From a virus: a stretch of DNA of 38,742 nucleotides. The stretch lies in IMG/VR virus record IMGVR_UViG_3300019142_000036, positions 1-38,742 of that record. One strand, given 5' to 3'. The position numbers and the translations under genes are program-made. Positions 4,786 to 28,549 of the stretch are shown one piece after another. Numbering within the stretch: position 1 is the first letter of the stretch; each line of letters opens with the position of its first letter. The notes beneath the pieces were generated by a model that ran no database searches, had not been told where the DNA came from, and was given only the letters and a program-made list of their open reading frames with translations.

Positions 4786-6887
4786 TATGTCCTCCGTACG
4801 ACGAGCGGGACGGCGGGGAAGTGGAACTCCACCGAGGCGACAAACTTGGTCGGCGTGAACGTGTACGTGACGCGCTGCACCGGGGCGGGCCGCAGCCCGA
4901 ACACGGGGAGCTGGTCTGGTAGCCGCCACGTCGACGCGGGCAGGCGAACGTCGTCGGCCGCGAGGTCGGCGTCGGCGGTCAACGCAAGGTCGCCGGCTGA
5001 CACGCTGAGCACCGGAGCGCCGGCCAGCGCGGTACGGGTGGTGGAGTGGTACAGGTCGTCGGCGTCGCCCTGCGCCCAGCCGGCGGGCAGCGGCGCGTTG
5101 ATGTCGACGATCTCGATCGAGGTGGTGCCGGTCAGCCGGACGGGCCGCCGGATCTGCGCGCTGAATGCCCGGATCAGGTCGAGCACGGTCGCCGACCGTG
5201 TGTCGCCGCCCGGGTCCGCGGGTACGGCCGGGACGATGGTGTCCGGGTCGCCGGGTTCGGGCCAGTCGCCGTCGCCGCCGGGCGTGTCCACCCACGGCGG
5301 GTCAGGGTCGACCCATGGCGGCGGGTCGGGGTCGGGGTTGTCCGGGTCGCCAGTGCCGGGCGTCGCGCCGGCCACGTTGACGTTGTCGAAGTGCGTCACG
5401 CCGTAGCTGCCGAGCGCCAACGTCACATCGCCGAACGCGGCGACGTCTTCGAAGGTCTGGAAGTCCGACCAGTCGTAGCCGTTCGGTCCGGCGCTGAATG
5501 ACAGGTGCCCGTCGTACCACACGATCATCAGCCAGGCGTGCGCCTCGGGGTCGTAATCCTCGACATGTGAGCCGCTGGTCGTTCCGTCGTACCACGTAGC
5601 GGTGATGGTGGCGGCGTTGCGGTCGATCTGGAATACGGCGGTCGGTGGCGCGTCGCCGAGCACGCCGTCAACGCGCAGCGTCGCGGTCGCACCGGCGGCC
5701 GGGCTGACCTTGGCGCGGACCTCATCGAAGCGGTAGATGCCCTGCGTGCGGAGTTCGCCGTCCTGGCCGGCCGCGCCGACGACGGCCTGACCGCCGGACA
5801 CCGTGGCGTTGTACGGCAGCGACGCCGGCAGGAACGTGACCCATCTGCCGGCAACGAACGAGTCGAACGTGTCGGTCAGCGTGGACAGGTACGGATGCAC
5901 AGAGCCGGCGGGCAGCGCGTTTGTGGACGGTCCGGTCAGGCTGAACCACATCGCGTACGTCTGCGGGATGTACCAGTCGTCGGGGTGCTGGCGATCGATA
6001 CTCCACCCGGACATGGCCATCTGGAACCAGTACGTCGTGCCGCCCGTGACACCGATCGTCAGCCCTTGATCGACCAGGAAGTACGTCGCGGTCAGGCTCA
6101 TGAAGGTGCCGTCGTACGGCGGGGCAACGGCCGGCGGGTAGCCGGGGTGGGTGTGCGGTCCATCGCTGACGTACATCATGCCGAAGAAGTACGGGTTGTC
6201 GGAGTCGACACCGTACGGTCGCGACGGGAAGGCGAACGTACATGTACCGGACGTTGCCGGGGTGTACCGGAACCAGGCCGTCCCGTGGTCCATTCGTTGG
6301 CCGCGCGTCAGGCCGTTCGGGTTGTAGTCGCCCACCGGCACGTAGGTCAGCGGCTCGTGGCCGGGCGACTGGCTGGCGTCGGACGGGTGCTGCTCATCCG
6401 GCTCCCAGGTGTAATTGCCGCGCGTCAAGTCGACGGGCGGTGATAGGTACGCACTCCCGTTGTACGGGAGGTATATGTCGACGACGTCGTCACGGTTGTC
6501 TGCGGGTGCGGCGGCAGGTGCGGTTGCCAGAGCTTCCGGTCCGACAACGACAAGCTTGACGTTGCCGCTGGCGTTATCCAACGCGCCTTGAATCTTGTAG
6601 ACGGTGCCGGCCGTCACCGGGAACGACGACGACAGTCCGAACGCGCCGCTGCTGGTCAGCGCGTCGATGGTGTCGCCCGTGTAGGCCCGGCATCCGACGT
6701 TGGTCCCGGTGTTGGTCGACGCGGTGATCGTCGCCGTGCCGTTGGCCACGGGCCGGTACCACCACCACCAGGTGTACGTGTACGCGCCGGTGTGCGGCTC
6801 GTTGAGGCTGATCGGGGTCGGGTCGGCGTACCCGGACTCGTACCCGTCGCCCGACACCTGGACGTAGCTCACGTCGCTGTACGCCAC
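4785..6887 (-). CDS. Large minor tail protein
   Basis: This 700-aa protein lies between the tape-measure/distal-tail genes and the fibre genes. The N-terminal half is rich in Tyr/Trp and beta-strand patterns ([10 protein letters not shown], several GTTYWF and GTVYKI segments) like prepeptidase C-terminal or carbohydrate-binding modules. The middle (about residues 345-510) resembles a concanavalin/laminin-G-like sandwich (DTFDSF..RW ... FDNVNVAG). A Pro/Asp-rich linker (about 515-565) leads to a C-terminal domain that seems to be a baseplate- or fibre-attachment module. The GTG start has an AAGGG-type RBS. Adsorption or tail-tip structure is likely. No catalytic motif is evident. Confidence 0.8.
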
Positions 6888-25684: not shown

Positions 25685-26023
25685 TCAGAATGGGAAGGGA
25701 CCCGAATGCGCCGGGACAAGTGCAGGCGCCGCCGGGGTTGCGCGGTGATCGGCCGGGATGTGCCGGCCGCATTGGTGTTGCACCAGGACCGGGCCGCGTA
25801 GAAATGTGCCGCGGACGCGCGACGCGTCGCGCTGCACGAGACCTGATTTCGTCAACGTGAACGTGGCGAGGATGCCGAGAATGGCGATCAGTTCGCCGAG
25901 CTGGTTCACCGCGACGGGGTCGACGCGGCAGGGCAGCCCTTCGGCCAGGCCGACGAGGATGGGCGCCTGGCAGCGGCGGCAGCGTTGCACGGTGACCGGG
26001 TCGGTGGCGAGGTGCTCGCTCAT
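25685..26023 (-). CDS. Small Cys-motif protein
   Basis: This 112-aa protein starts at ATG 26023 after GGAGG. Its N-terminus has [25 protein letters not shown], a C-x2-C plus a later Cys. A later stretch ([29 protein letters not shown]) is followed by a basic end ([13 protein letters not shown]). It may be a zinc protein. The function is unknown. Another reading frame from 26471 covers the same DNA but has the composition of a shadow there. Confidence 0.68.
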
Positions 26024-26103: not shown

Positions 26104-26149
26104 CCCCCACCAGCCCTCCCCTCCCCTACGGGGAGGGCTGAAGTGGGGG
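26104..26149. repeat. Strong hairpin, possible terminator or IS-end remnant
   Basis: An 11-bp perfect stem (CAGCCCTCCCC, 26111-26121, with 26130-26140) is extended by a further 7-bp stem (CCCCCAC, 26104-26110, with 26143-26149) after an AA bulge. It may be a transcription terminator. The C/G-rich hairpin with AAGTGGGGG next to it also recalls the end hairpins of IS200/IS605-type elements, but no transposase is present. Confidence 0.5.
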
Positions 26150-26230
26150 TCCTCCCGGCTAGGCCCTGGTTCGACGCAACACGAAGCAGATGATCTTCAT
26201 CGCCGCAGGTCAGAGGCACTTTCGAGCGCC

Positions 26231-26245
26231 ATCCACTGTGGATAG
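26231..26245 (-). other. DnaA-box-like site in a palindrome
   Basis: The perfect palindrome ATCCAC-T-GTGGAT (26231-26243) contains, on the minus strand, CTATCCACA (26245-26237). This matches the DnaA box TTATCCACA at 8 of 9 positions. It lies 29 bp from the heptamer array. Confidence 0.45.
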
Positions 26246-26273
26246 CCGTCAGCGATGCACGCCGATGGCGTGT

Positions 26274-26452
26274 TGTCGCGTGGATTCGGGTCCTGTCGCG
26301 CGACACGAAACGCGACACGACGCGACACCCGATGGTGTTTGTGCAGGTCAGCGCTGTCGCGTCGCTCTCGTGGCACGCGACAGCGCGGTATCGGGCAGGC
26401 GCCGTGTCGCGGTTTTGTCGCGTTGTTGTCGCACGCGACACGGAACGCGACA
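26274..26452. repeat. Heptamer array TGTCGCG/CGCGACA (origin or operator candidate)
   Basis: Within 179 bp there are twelve heptamers. Direct orientation: 26274, 26294, 26355, 26405, 26416 and 26427 (the last TGTCGCA). Inverse orientation: 26299, 26311, 26321, 26376, 26434 and 26446. They form three converging groups (++---, +-, +++--). Several are spaced 10-12 bp, i.e. on the same DNA face, and 26294-26305 is a perfect 12-bp palindrome. The array follows the primase-helicase gene directly. Iteron-like sites of this kind mark phage or plasmid origins, but could also be repressor or partition sites. An ORF across this region is unlikely to be a real protein. Confidence 0.75.
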
Positions 26453-26467: not shown

Positions 26468-28549
26468 TCATCGGCTCGCCGATGCCGGTGCGGTGAACGG
26501 CGCGGGATCCTGGTCGCCTTCGGTGGCGGCGAACGATCGTCGATCCCCGGCTGCGTGCTCCCGGACGGTCCCGGCTGACACCAGCCGGTCGAGCGCCCGG
26601 TACAGCGACGATCGGTGCACGTTGCCGAGTTCGGCCTGGAGCTGCGGAACGGACATGAACCGGCCGCCGCAATCTCCCAGGATCCGCACGATCCGCGAGG
26701 TCAGCGGCGCGTCCACGTCGCCGCTGTTCGCTGATTCGATGACGATGGAGTCGAACGCTGCCCTGCGGCCGAGCCAGCGACTTTCCCCGCTGGACCCTTC
26801 CTTTACTTTCTTGCGGGTCATTTCCACAAGTTCGGAGTCCTTATCGCCTTTGAGGACGATCACTTCGTCAACGTTGGCTTCGAGTTGGGATCCGCCCCGG
26901 GTGCGGCCGGCATCGCCCCACCCTGGGTGGTGGATCAGCGCGCCGGTGCCGTCGATGTCGGCGGTGAAGTCGGAGAGTCGGCGGGTGATTGATGCGGCGT
27001 CTTTTGTTTCGTCGGCGTCGGGGGCGAGTGAGGAGAAGGTGTCGAGGATGACGAATCTGATGTGGAGGTCGAGGCATTGTTCGCGCATCTGGGCCCAGGT
27101 GTTCGGGTTGGCGAGGGAGTCGGGTTTGACGGAGAAGATGAGGTCGTCGTCGTCGACGCTGGTGTGCCAGGTCTGCTCCCACGCGGAGACCCGCGCGTCG
27201 AGTCCGGTGGCGCCTTCGCCGACGACGAAGAGTCCTTTGACGCGGTGGACGGGTTGTCCGAGCCAGTGCAGGCCGGTGGTGACGGAGCAGGCCCAGGACA
27301 GGGCGAGGAAGGTCTTGCCGAGGCCGGTGCCGCCGACGAGGACGACGCTGGAGCGCAGCGACATGACGCCGTCGATGAGGGGCGCGACGGGTGGGAGGTC
27401 GCGCAGTTTGGAGCGTCGCAGCAGCGTGGCGGCGAACCCGTTGAAGGTGGTGGCGGCCGGTGCGGCGTTGGGTGGGTGGGTGCCGTTGCCGTTGCTCGCC
27501 GCGGCGGCTGGGGGGCCGGTGGTGAACGGGGCGAGGGCCGGCGTGGGCCGCGGGCGGGTGCCGTAGCCGGCGTCGTGGAGGGCTTTGGCGGCGGCGGCCA
27601 GGTCGCCGTGGTGGTTGAGGACGGCGTACGCGCCGAGTTTGCTGTAGGAGGTGGTGTCGAAGTCGGTGCTGGTGGTGAAGACGCGGAGTCGGTCGGTGCC
27701 GAGCGCGTCGGTGGTGGCGGACACGCCGACCGCTTTGCCGGGGCGGCACCAGGCGCGGAGTTGCCCGCGGGTGTAGACGAGGCGCCACCCGTGGGGGGTG
27801 AGGATGTGGGCCCAGTCGGTGTGCTGGGCGTAGTGGTCGCCGGGTGAGAGGTGCCCGTCGGCGGGCTGCGGCGGGGCGGGTGGGGTGAACGGCCCGGGGT
27901 TGGCGGGCGCGGCCGGCTGGGGGTGGTGGTTGAGGGCGCGGACCACGTCGTGGAGTTGGGCGCGTTCGTCGGCGGTGATGGTGGGCACGCGCCCGGGTCG
28001 GCTGTTGCCGTGCAGGGTCCACGCGCCACCGGTGGGGTGTACCGGGCCGTGCGATGGGGCGACGACGACGTAGCCGCCTTCGCCGCGGGTTTCGGCGAGG
28101 ACGTCGTTGGTGGCGGTGCTGGCGAGTTTGAGGTTGCCGGGCACGGGGGCGCCGTCGACGCGGTAGAGCAGGTGCAGCCCGCCGGAGGGGGTGCGTTCGG
28201 CGTAGCCGGCGGTGAGGCGGTGCCAGACGTGGTCGAGTTCGGCGTCGGCCATGAGCTGCTGCAGGTCGGTGAGGTGCCCGCCGGTGACGGCGCGGCCTTC
28301 GAGCTCGAGCATTTCGAGGTTGCCGGAGACGGCGCCGCAGATGAGGCCGAGGCCGGGGTGGGCGTCCCTGAACCAGGCGGTGACTTCGTCGAGGGTGGGT
28401 GGCGTGCTCTGGTACTGCTTCCACGTGGTGAGGGGCGCTTTGGTGCCGTCGGTGCGGGCGGGGACGACGGCGTATCCGGCGGCGTGCCAGGCGTGGGCTG
28501 CGCTGGTGGTGGTGACCGCCGGTGGTGGGGCGATGGTGGCGCTGCTCAT
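26468..28549 (-). CDS. Bifunctional primase-polymerase / RecA-like helicase
   Basis: This 693-aa protein has three parts. Residues about 17-190 are a prim-pol (AEP) domain: AAHAWHAAGYAVVPARTDGTKAPLTTW, GLGLICGAVSGNLEMLELEG, and GGLHLLYRV. Residues about 375-610 are a RecA/DnaB-type ATPase with Walker A GGTGLGKT (406-413), Walker B FVILDTF (499-505) and a following IHHPGWGD segment. Residues about 615-680 form a winged helix (SVPQLQAELGNVHRSSLYRALDRLVSAGTVRE). It would prime and unwind DNA at the phage origin. The typical hDhD motif of the primase appears as EMLELEG, so catalysis is not sure. The ATG at 28549 was chosen. Confidence 0.9.
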   Translation of the reverse strand: MSSATIAPPPAVTTTSAAHAWHAAGYAVVPARTDGTKAPLTTWKQYQSTPPTLDEVTAWFRDAHPGLGLICGAVSGNLEMLELEGRAVTGGHLTDLQQLMADAELDHVWHRLTAGYAERTPSGGLHLLYRVDGAPVPGNLKLASTATNDVLAETRGEGGYVVVAPSHGPVHPTGGAWTLHGNSRPGRVPTITADERAQLHDVVRALNHHPQPAAPANPGPFTPPAPPQPADGHLSPGDHYAQHTDWAHILTPHGWRLVYTRGQLRAWCRPGKAVGVSATTDALGTDRLRVFTTSTDFDTTSYSKLGAYAVLNHHGDLAAAAKALHDAGYGTRPRPTPALAPFTTGPPAAAASNGNGTHPPNAAPAATTFNGFAATLLRRSKLRDLPPVAPLIDGVMSLRSSVVLVGGTGLGKTFLALSWACSVTTGLHWLGQPVHRVKGLFVVGEGATGLDARVSAWEQTWHTSVDDDDLIFSVKPDSLANPNTWAQMREQCLDLHIRFVILDTFSSLAPDADETKDAASITRRLSDFTADIDGTGALIHHPGWGDAGRTRGGSQLEANVDEVIVLKGDKDSELVEMTRKKVKEGSSGESRWLGRRAAFDSIVIESANSGDVDAPLTSRIVRILGDCGGRFMSVPQLQAELGNVHRSSLYRALDRLVSAGTVREHAAGDRRSFAATEGDQDPAPFTAPASASR

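Follow-up and report, generated by a model that had tools for sequence, protein, structure and literature searches.

A heptamer array adjoining a primase-polymerase/helicase gene, a candidate iteron origin of replication in a siphovirus-like prophage

Results

Genes and repeats at the locus

The stretch of DNA analyzed as a whole, hereafter the window, is the complete IMG/VR virus record IMGVR_UViG_3300019142_000036 (38,742 nucleotides). It represents a siphovirus-like prophage of 70% G+C, whose genes include those for integrase, terminase, portal, capsid and tape measure, and which also encodes a HTH_31 regulator. An array of short repeats occupies non-coding DNA between two genes that both run on the minus strand, one for a primase-polymerase (prim-pol) fused to a helicase and one for a small CxxC protein. 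The features of the region are listed below.

25685-26023, minus strand: small CxxC protein, 112 aa, phrog_10480 by a longer frame; kept beyond the array in relatives
26104-26149, no strand: GC-rich inverted repeat CCCCCAC...GTGGGGG, non-coding, between the array and the CxxC gene
26205-26213, minus strand: shared motif CTGACCTGC, copy 1; its core TGACCTGC is also present in locus L171 and 12 other loci
26237-26245, minus strand: DnaA-box-like CTATCCACA, 8/9, inside ATCCAC-T-GTGGAT (26231-26243)
26274-26452, no strand: putative iteron array, 11 TGTCGCG and one TGTCGCA, in both orientations, from the repeat count
26274-26327, no strand: repeat subgroup distal to prim-pol (++---), from the repeat count
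26343-26351, minus strand: shared motif CTGACCTGC, copy 2, within the array, from a motif search
26355-26382, no strand: central inverted pair, with perfect 12-bp arms GCGCTGTCGCGT / ACGCGACAGCGC (outer ends 26351-26386)
26405-26452, no strand: repeat subgroup proximal to prim-pol (+++--, with TGTCGCA at 26427), from the repeat count
26468-28549, minus strand: Prim-Pol / AAA_25 (RepA-like) helicase / C-terminal winged helix protein, 693 aa, presumed initiator, from Pfam and an AlphaFold model
26525-26710, minus strand: C-terminal winged helix, codons 614-675, presumed reader of the repeats, from AlphaFold and by analogy with covariation in relatives

Pfam searches assigned to the prim-pol protein a PF09250 Prim-Pol domain (E 6.9e-16) and a PF13481 AAA_25 domain, and its AlphaFold model matches KaiC and RSF1010 RepA in PDB (1olo among the structural matches). 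Residues 614-675 are modelled as a winged helix with H-H-H-E-E topology, at a pLDDT of about 80-89 over most of its length. A fold search against PDB with a single-sequence model of the C-terminus returned weak matches, several of them winged helices, with a best E of 2.6, while a PDB sequence search with the window protein gave no match. The 112-aa CxxC protein gave no match in a Pfam scan; its gene is found 3' of prim-pol in 41 of 64 non-redundant related loci, in the order prim-pol, array, CxxC, and the protein is perhaps part of the replication module.

The array was first reported in an earlier note as twelve heptamers within 179 bp, and recounting gave the same figure and order: eleven exact copies of TGTCGCG (26274+, 26294+, 26299-, 26311-, 26321-, 26355+, 26376-, 26405+, 26416+, 26434- and 26446-) and one TGTCGCA variant (26427+, the twelfth site), arranged as ++---, +-, +++-- between 26274 and 26452. 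The heptamers at 26294 and 26299 overlap within TGTCGCGCGACA, and the octamer TGTCGCGT occurs 8 times in the array. Same-strand neighbors follow each other at steps of 10-12 bp, except for one step of 20 bp. The array starts 15 nt past the stop codon of the prim-pol gene, which it was previously described as directly following.

In order to evaluate the clustering, TGTCGCG was counted over the 38.7-kb window against Markov backgrounds, as had been proposed. Of 25 exact copies, 11 are in the array; the remaining 14 match the 13-14 predicted by order-3/5 Markov models, and are therefore at background level. The densest 180 bp in simulated sequences contained 2-4 copies (60 simulated windows per model) versus the 11 observed, so that the excess, originally argued from base composition, also lies far above chance in Markov simulations. 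No other 7-mer in the window is as strongly clustered as CGCGACA, the complement of TGTCGCG. By the test used for iteron origins, the window holds an excess of short-repeat copies beside the gene of its presumed initiator.

A frame running down from 26471 is open through the array, and coding for a conserved protein in this frame had been named as evidence against an origin. It was discarded as a gene: its GC content is flat across codon positions, and no homologue was found among the ORFs located downstream in relatives. A Rfam scan of the locus gave no match.

DnaA box and other motifs around the array

The site at 26237-26245 reads TGTGGATAG, an 8/9 match to the DnaA box TTATCCACA, and is contained in an inverted repeat. 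The first heptamer is 28 bp away (29 in the earlier description), and the 6-bp arms of ATCCAC-T-GTGGAT flank a single unpaired base. Its reading as a DnaA site gains some support from relatives, since the stretch of L171 matching this site contains two perfect TTATCCACA and a DnaA box is found within 450 bp of prim-pol in 11 of 64 loci, versus about 2.3 expected, a frequency far from universal; iteron origins often, but not always, include such boxes. DnaA probably assists at the flanking box. In two relatives (L036 and L045) the repeats past the prim-pol stop codon are themselves DnaA boxes, TTATCCACA in four copies, as if the DnaA site had taken the place of that of the phage initiator or fused with it.

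Two further motifs were encountered near prim-pol stop codons. The core TGACCTGC is present within 450 bp in 14 of 65 loci (about 2.4 expected), and the alternating purine-pyrimidine sequence ACGCGCGC within 450 bp past the stop in 17 of 64 (about 1.8 expected), for example in L151; the latter is possibly an easily melted or Z-prone tract in these relatives.

The hairpin at 26104-26149 is a possible terminator, not a classical one because it has no T tract. The AT fraction reaches at most 0.43 in 60-bp windows of the region, versus 0.30 genome-wide, and no clear AT-rich melting element, a usual but not constant neighbor of iterons, was found across the region at this window size. GC skew has no turning point at the array and was uninformative.

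Repeat arrays in related loci

About 180 relatives were collected, and an alignment of four N-terminal domains was used to fetch 160 loci, which were reduced to a non-redundant set of 64 clusters at 70% identity. Within this set, the top 7-mer array of the whole locus falls in the 300 bp past the prim-pol stop codon in 37 loci, versus about 2 expected; in the remaining 27 the best array is located elsewhere. Absence of the array from this position in related phages had been named as evidence against an origin; an array is carried there by these 37 loci and by L171. The top repeat is present in both orientations in 49 of 64 loci; the repeats are mostly direct in several relatives. Spacing between same-strand neighbors peaks at 8-12 bp (77 of 137 steps). 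The same primase is joined to two unrelated helicases, AAA_25 and D5/DUF5906, and arrays accompany both.

The heptamer itself is not conserved, a result not foreseen by the earlier note. The repeats of relatives vary, and include TGACGCAT, TGACCGGT, GGTGACAG, AGTGCCGT, GGAACAGT, GGTTCGGT, TGTTTCCC and TGCAGGGA. Within groups of related loci, repeat columns are more conserved than adjacent non-coding columns in 8 of 8 groups, marginally so in one.

The closest relative, L171, encodes a protein that aligns with that of the window at 51% identity over residues 14-685; the two C-termini are homologous. GTTGCG, which corresponds to the core GTCGCG of the window repeat, occurs 8 times in the 300 bp past the L171 stop codon, in both orientations, where 0.4 would be expected; no more than 2 were counted elsewhere in that locus. 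The two perfect DnaA boxes lie in these 300 bp, and the CTGACCTGC motif and the CxxC gene are also present. A Streptomyces plasmid (L010, NZ_CP108372.1), circular and 34 kb long, which has structural genes of a phage and a prim-pol gene, apparently a phage-plasmid or a circularized phage, carries an inverted array of TGCAGGGA in the gap 3' of prim-pol, and contains no other annotated initiator.

Judy and Shambre1, Arthrobacter phages distantly related through the D5 type, showed no array right past the prim-pol stop. In L107 (8107-8577) an AAA_25 prim-pol with a different C-terminus is followed by a separate small HTH-like ORF and then by three direct repeats of 24 bp; this arrangement may be a split form of the prim-pol/array system. 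A search for the exact 19-mer pattern of the array gave seven hits in viral contigs, none of them an iteron array; L001, with a TGTCGC-type repeat, is a direct low-complexity repeat and was likewise rejected. The viral contig L003 contains seven GCGTCAC in 200 bp (about 5839-6039), overlapping long open frames; no prim-pol was detected in it.

Covariation of the repeat with protein domains

Similarity between repeats was compared to identity between the corresponding protein domains, by permutations that ignore phylogeny. For the 32 loci of the D5 type, repeat similarity correlates with C-terminal identity when the other domains are controlled for (partial rho 0.44, reached in 0 of 500 permutations), and with no other domain; a second alignment combined with a different similarity measure gave the same result (0 of 200). 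For the AAA_25 type, the first measure singled out the C-terminus as the sole significant domain (1 of 500). Sliding windows with an octamer-based similarity on the broad AAA_25 set revealed no C-terminal signal, and parts of the N-terminal half correlated instead.

A focused test was performed on 16 loci of one AAA_25 subfamily, the repeats of which are one or two bases apart. When columns are ranked by their information on single-base repeat changes, 19 of the top 20 lie within the C-terminal 87 residues, versus 6.3 such columns with permuted labels (1 of 400 permutations for the first site and 0 of 400 for the second). At position 632, in L018 numbering, Gln is found in all 6 loci with T:A, and Asp or Glu in 9 of 10 loci with C:G; a single lineage, L046, departs from this. 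Contacts of Gln with A and of Glu/Asp with C are familiar in protein-DNA recognition.

These comparisons suggest that, whichever of the two unrelated helicases is present, repeat identity tracks the C-terminal domain and neither the primase nor the helicase; because word and tail change together, the C-terminal tail would be the part that reads the repeat. For the window protein the assignment is made by analogy, since only L171 and L140 carry a comparable array within its own sub-branch.

Discussion

A candidate origin, proposed to be read by its own primase-helicase

We propose, with a probability of about four in five, that the array forms the iteron component of the prophage replication origin, which the primase-helicase encoded beside it would recognize through its C-terminal winged helix. 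The origin function, already suggested in the earlier note, is supported by the positional arrays of relatives, by repeat conservation and by the way the repeat changes with the C-terminus of the adjacent primase-helicase in relatives. From sequences and models it is inferred that the window protein binds the array, that the DNA opens and the helicase is loaded there, that priming follows, and that DnaA takes part. In the proposed sequence of events, the winged helix would bind the TGTCGCG(T) repeats on both strands, gathering several initiator chains, and the opposed groups of repeats would position two helicase rings facing opposite directions. DnaA would help at the flanking box, where a box is present; the RepA-like helicase would then unwind the DNA, and the Prim-Pol domain would prime both strands.

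Under the least improbable of the alternatives, the locus would still be an origin, with the repeats acting as single-stranded template sites where de novo primer synthesis by the N-terminal Prim-Pol begins. NrS-1 PrimPol does need an 8-nt template sequence, found in two copies near the center of its genome, which may be the origin (PMC7102993), and in SCCmec, priming by CCPol-MP takes place at iterons of the putative origin (PMC7581432). We regard this reading as improbable for the window: helical-turn spacing and the presence of both orientations fit binding to duplex DNA, and repeat identity follows the C-terminal domain rather than the PrimPol or its helical domain, an argument limited by the N-terminal correlation that did appear in the broad AAA_25 set.

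Slightly less probable again is a structural origin, in which the inverted repeats fold into a large stem-loop recognized by its shape. The founder of the Prim-Pol family, pRN1, has a stem-loop origin free of iterons: a 100-bp stem-loop directly 3' of the prim-pol gene is required, and its authors proposed such origins for phages, extending the scheme to phage BIP-1 (PMC4234260). The region of the array does fold as single-stranded DNA, at z = -8; this is due to its inverted repeats, and would be expected of any inverted-repeat array. A stem-loop requires neither ten identical 7-mers, nor their mixed order, one-turn steps or covariation with a winged helix, and would not account for the relatives in which repeats are mostly direct. 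The foldability of inverted iterons may, on the other hand, reconcile an iteron origin with the stem-loop of pRN1.

An operator array, for a repressor or for autoregulation by the initiator, could control the co-directional CxxC gene downstream, and the HTH_31 protein would be an available regulator. We hold it to be more doubtful than the stem-loop, as no sigma-70-like promoter was found in the region, twelve sites are many for an operator, and array identity in relatives follows the prim-pol C-terminus; autoregulation alongside an origin function is compatible with these data. A partition site is the least credible reading: some plasmid centromeres are clustered short repeats and the relative L010 is a circular plasmid, but no ParA/ParB-type match was obtained for 20 window proteins scanned against Pfam, a prophage with an integrase needs no partition site, and the position of the array is tied to the prim-pol gene.

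Comparison with known systems

The combination of elements proposed here, an iteron array read by a Prim-Pol/helicase, resembles several replication systems, each differing in some components. In phage P4, a single protein, alpha, joins primase, helicase and origin binding to the short repeats of ori-crr; its Toprim-type primase and SF3 helicase are both missing from the window protein. P4 also serves as a point of contrast in PMC4234260. RSF1010 similarly combines a RepA-type hexameric helicase with iterons, but its RepA, RepB' and RepC are three separate proteins, of which RepC binds the iterons. The NrS-1 polymerase is also a phage Prim-Pol fused to a helicase, and its DNA site is likewise short and specific; unlike the window, the NrS-1 genome has two template sites, read for priming, and no array.

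The window protein shares with pRN1 ORF904 a Prim-Pol N-terminus, a C-terminal winged helix and a candidate origin directly 3' of the gene, but has an AAA_25 domain of KaiC/RepA-like fold in place of a SF3 helicase, and putative iterons where pRN1 has a 100-bp stem-loop; the D5 type is found only in other relatives. In SaPI/PICI elements the origin is also directly 3' of the initiator gene, and contains initiator-specific short repeats bound by the C-terminal domain (PMC7581432, PMC6092414). The window array, 15 nt past the stop codon of the presumed initiator gene, is placed likewise. The two systems differ in that the window primase is a Prim-Pol and its helicase is RecA/RepA-like, whereas the SaPI helicase is of the Rep type; in addition, the window does not contain two iteron sets flanking an AT-rich core, and is a complete prophage with capsid, portal, terminase and tape measure genes rather than a satellite.

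Significance

We consider it rather likely, though with clearly less confidence than the assignment of the window array, that these loci represent a widespread class of Prim-Pol/helicase origins, with a RepA-like or a D5-type helicase, in which each initiator would use an iteron array beside its own gene, and the repeat would shift together with the winged helix, generating many mutually exclusive specificities. Origins of the array type appear to be common in phages with Prim-Pol initiators, and an origin read through iterons would differ from the stem-loop put forward for proteins of this class. No description of prim-pol with iterons as a class was found in the open-access full texts searched, and single-chain Prim-Pol/helicase iteron origins are apparently undescribed for phages; this novelty is provisional, since the literature search was confined to open-access texts.

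The origins of prim-pol phages are mostly unmapped, the pRN1 stem-loop being the sole published proposal found for the protein class. A simple rule, to search the first 300 bp past the prim-pol stop codon, would allow the annotation of origins in many actinobacterial and freshwater phages, and the arrays could yield orthogonal replicons for actinobacteria. Because the repeat changes with one protein domain across lineages, both the exclusivity of origins and a winged-helix/DNA code are directly testable; if the proposed reading is true, the lineage-specific repeats would offer a ready set of natural variants from which such a code could be worked out.
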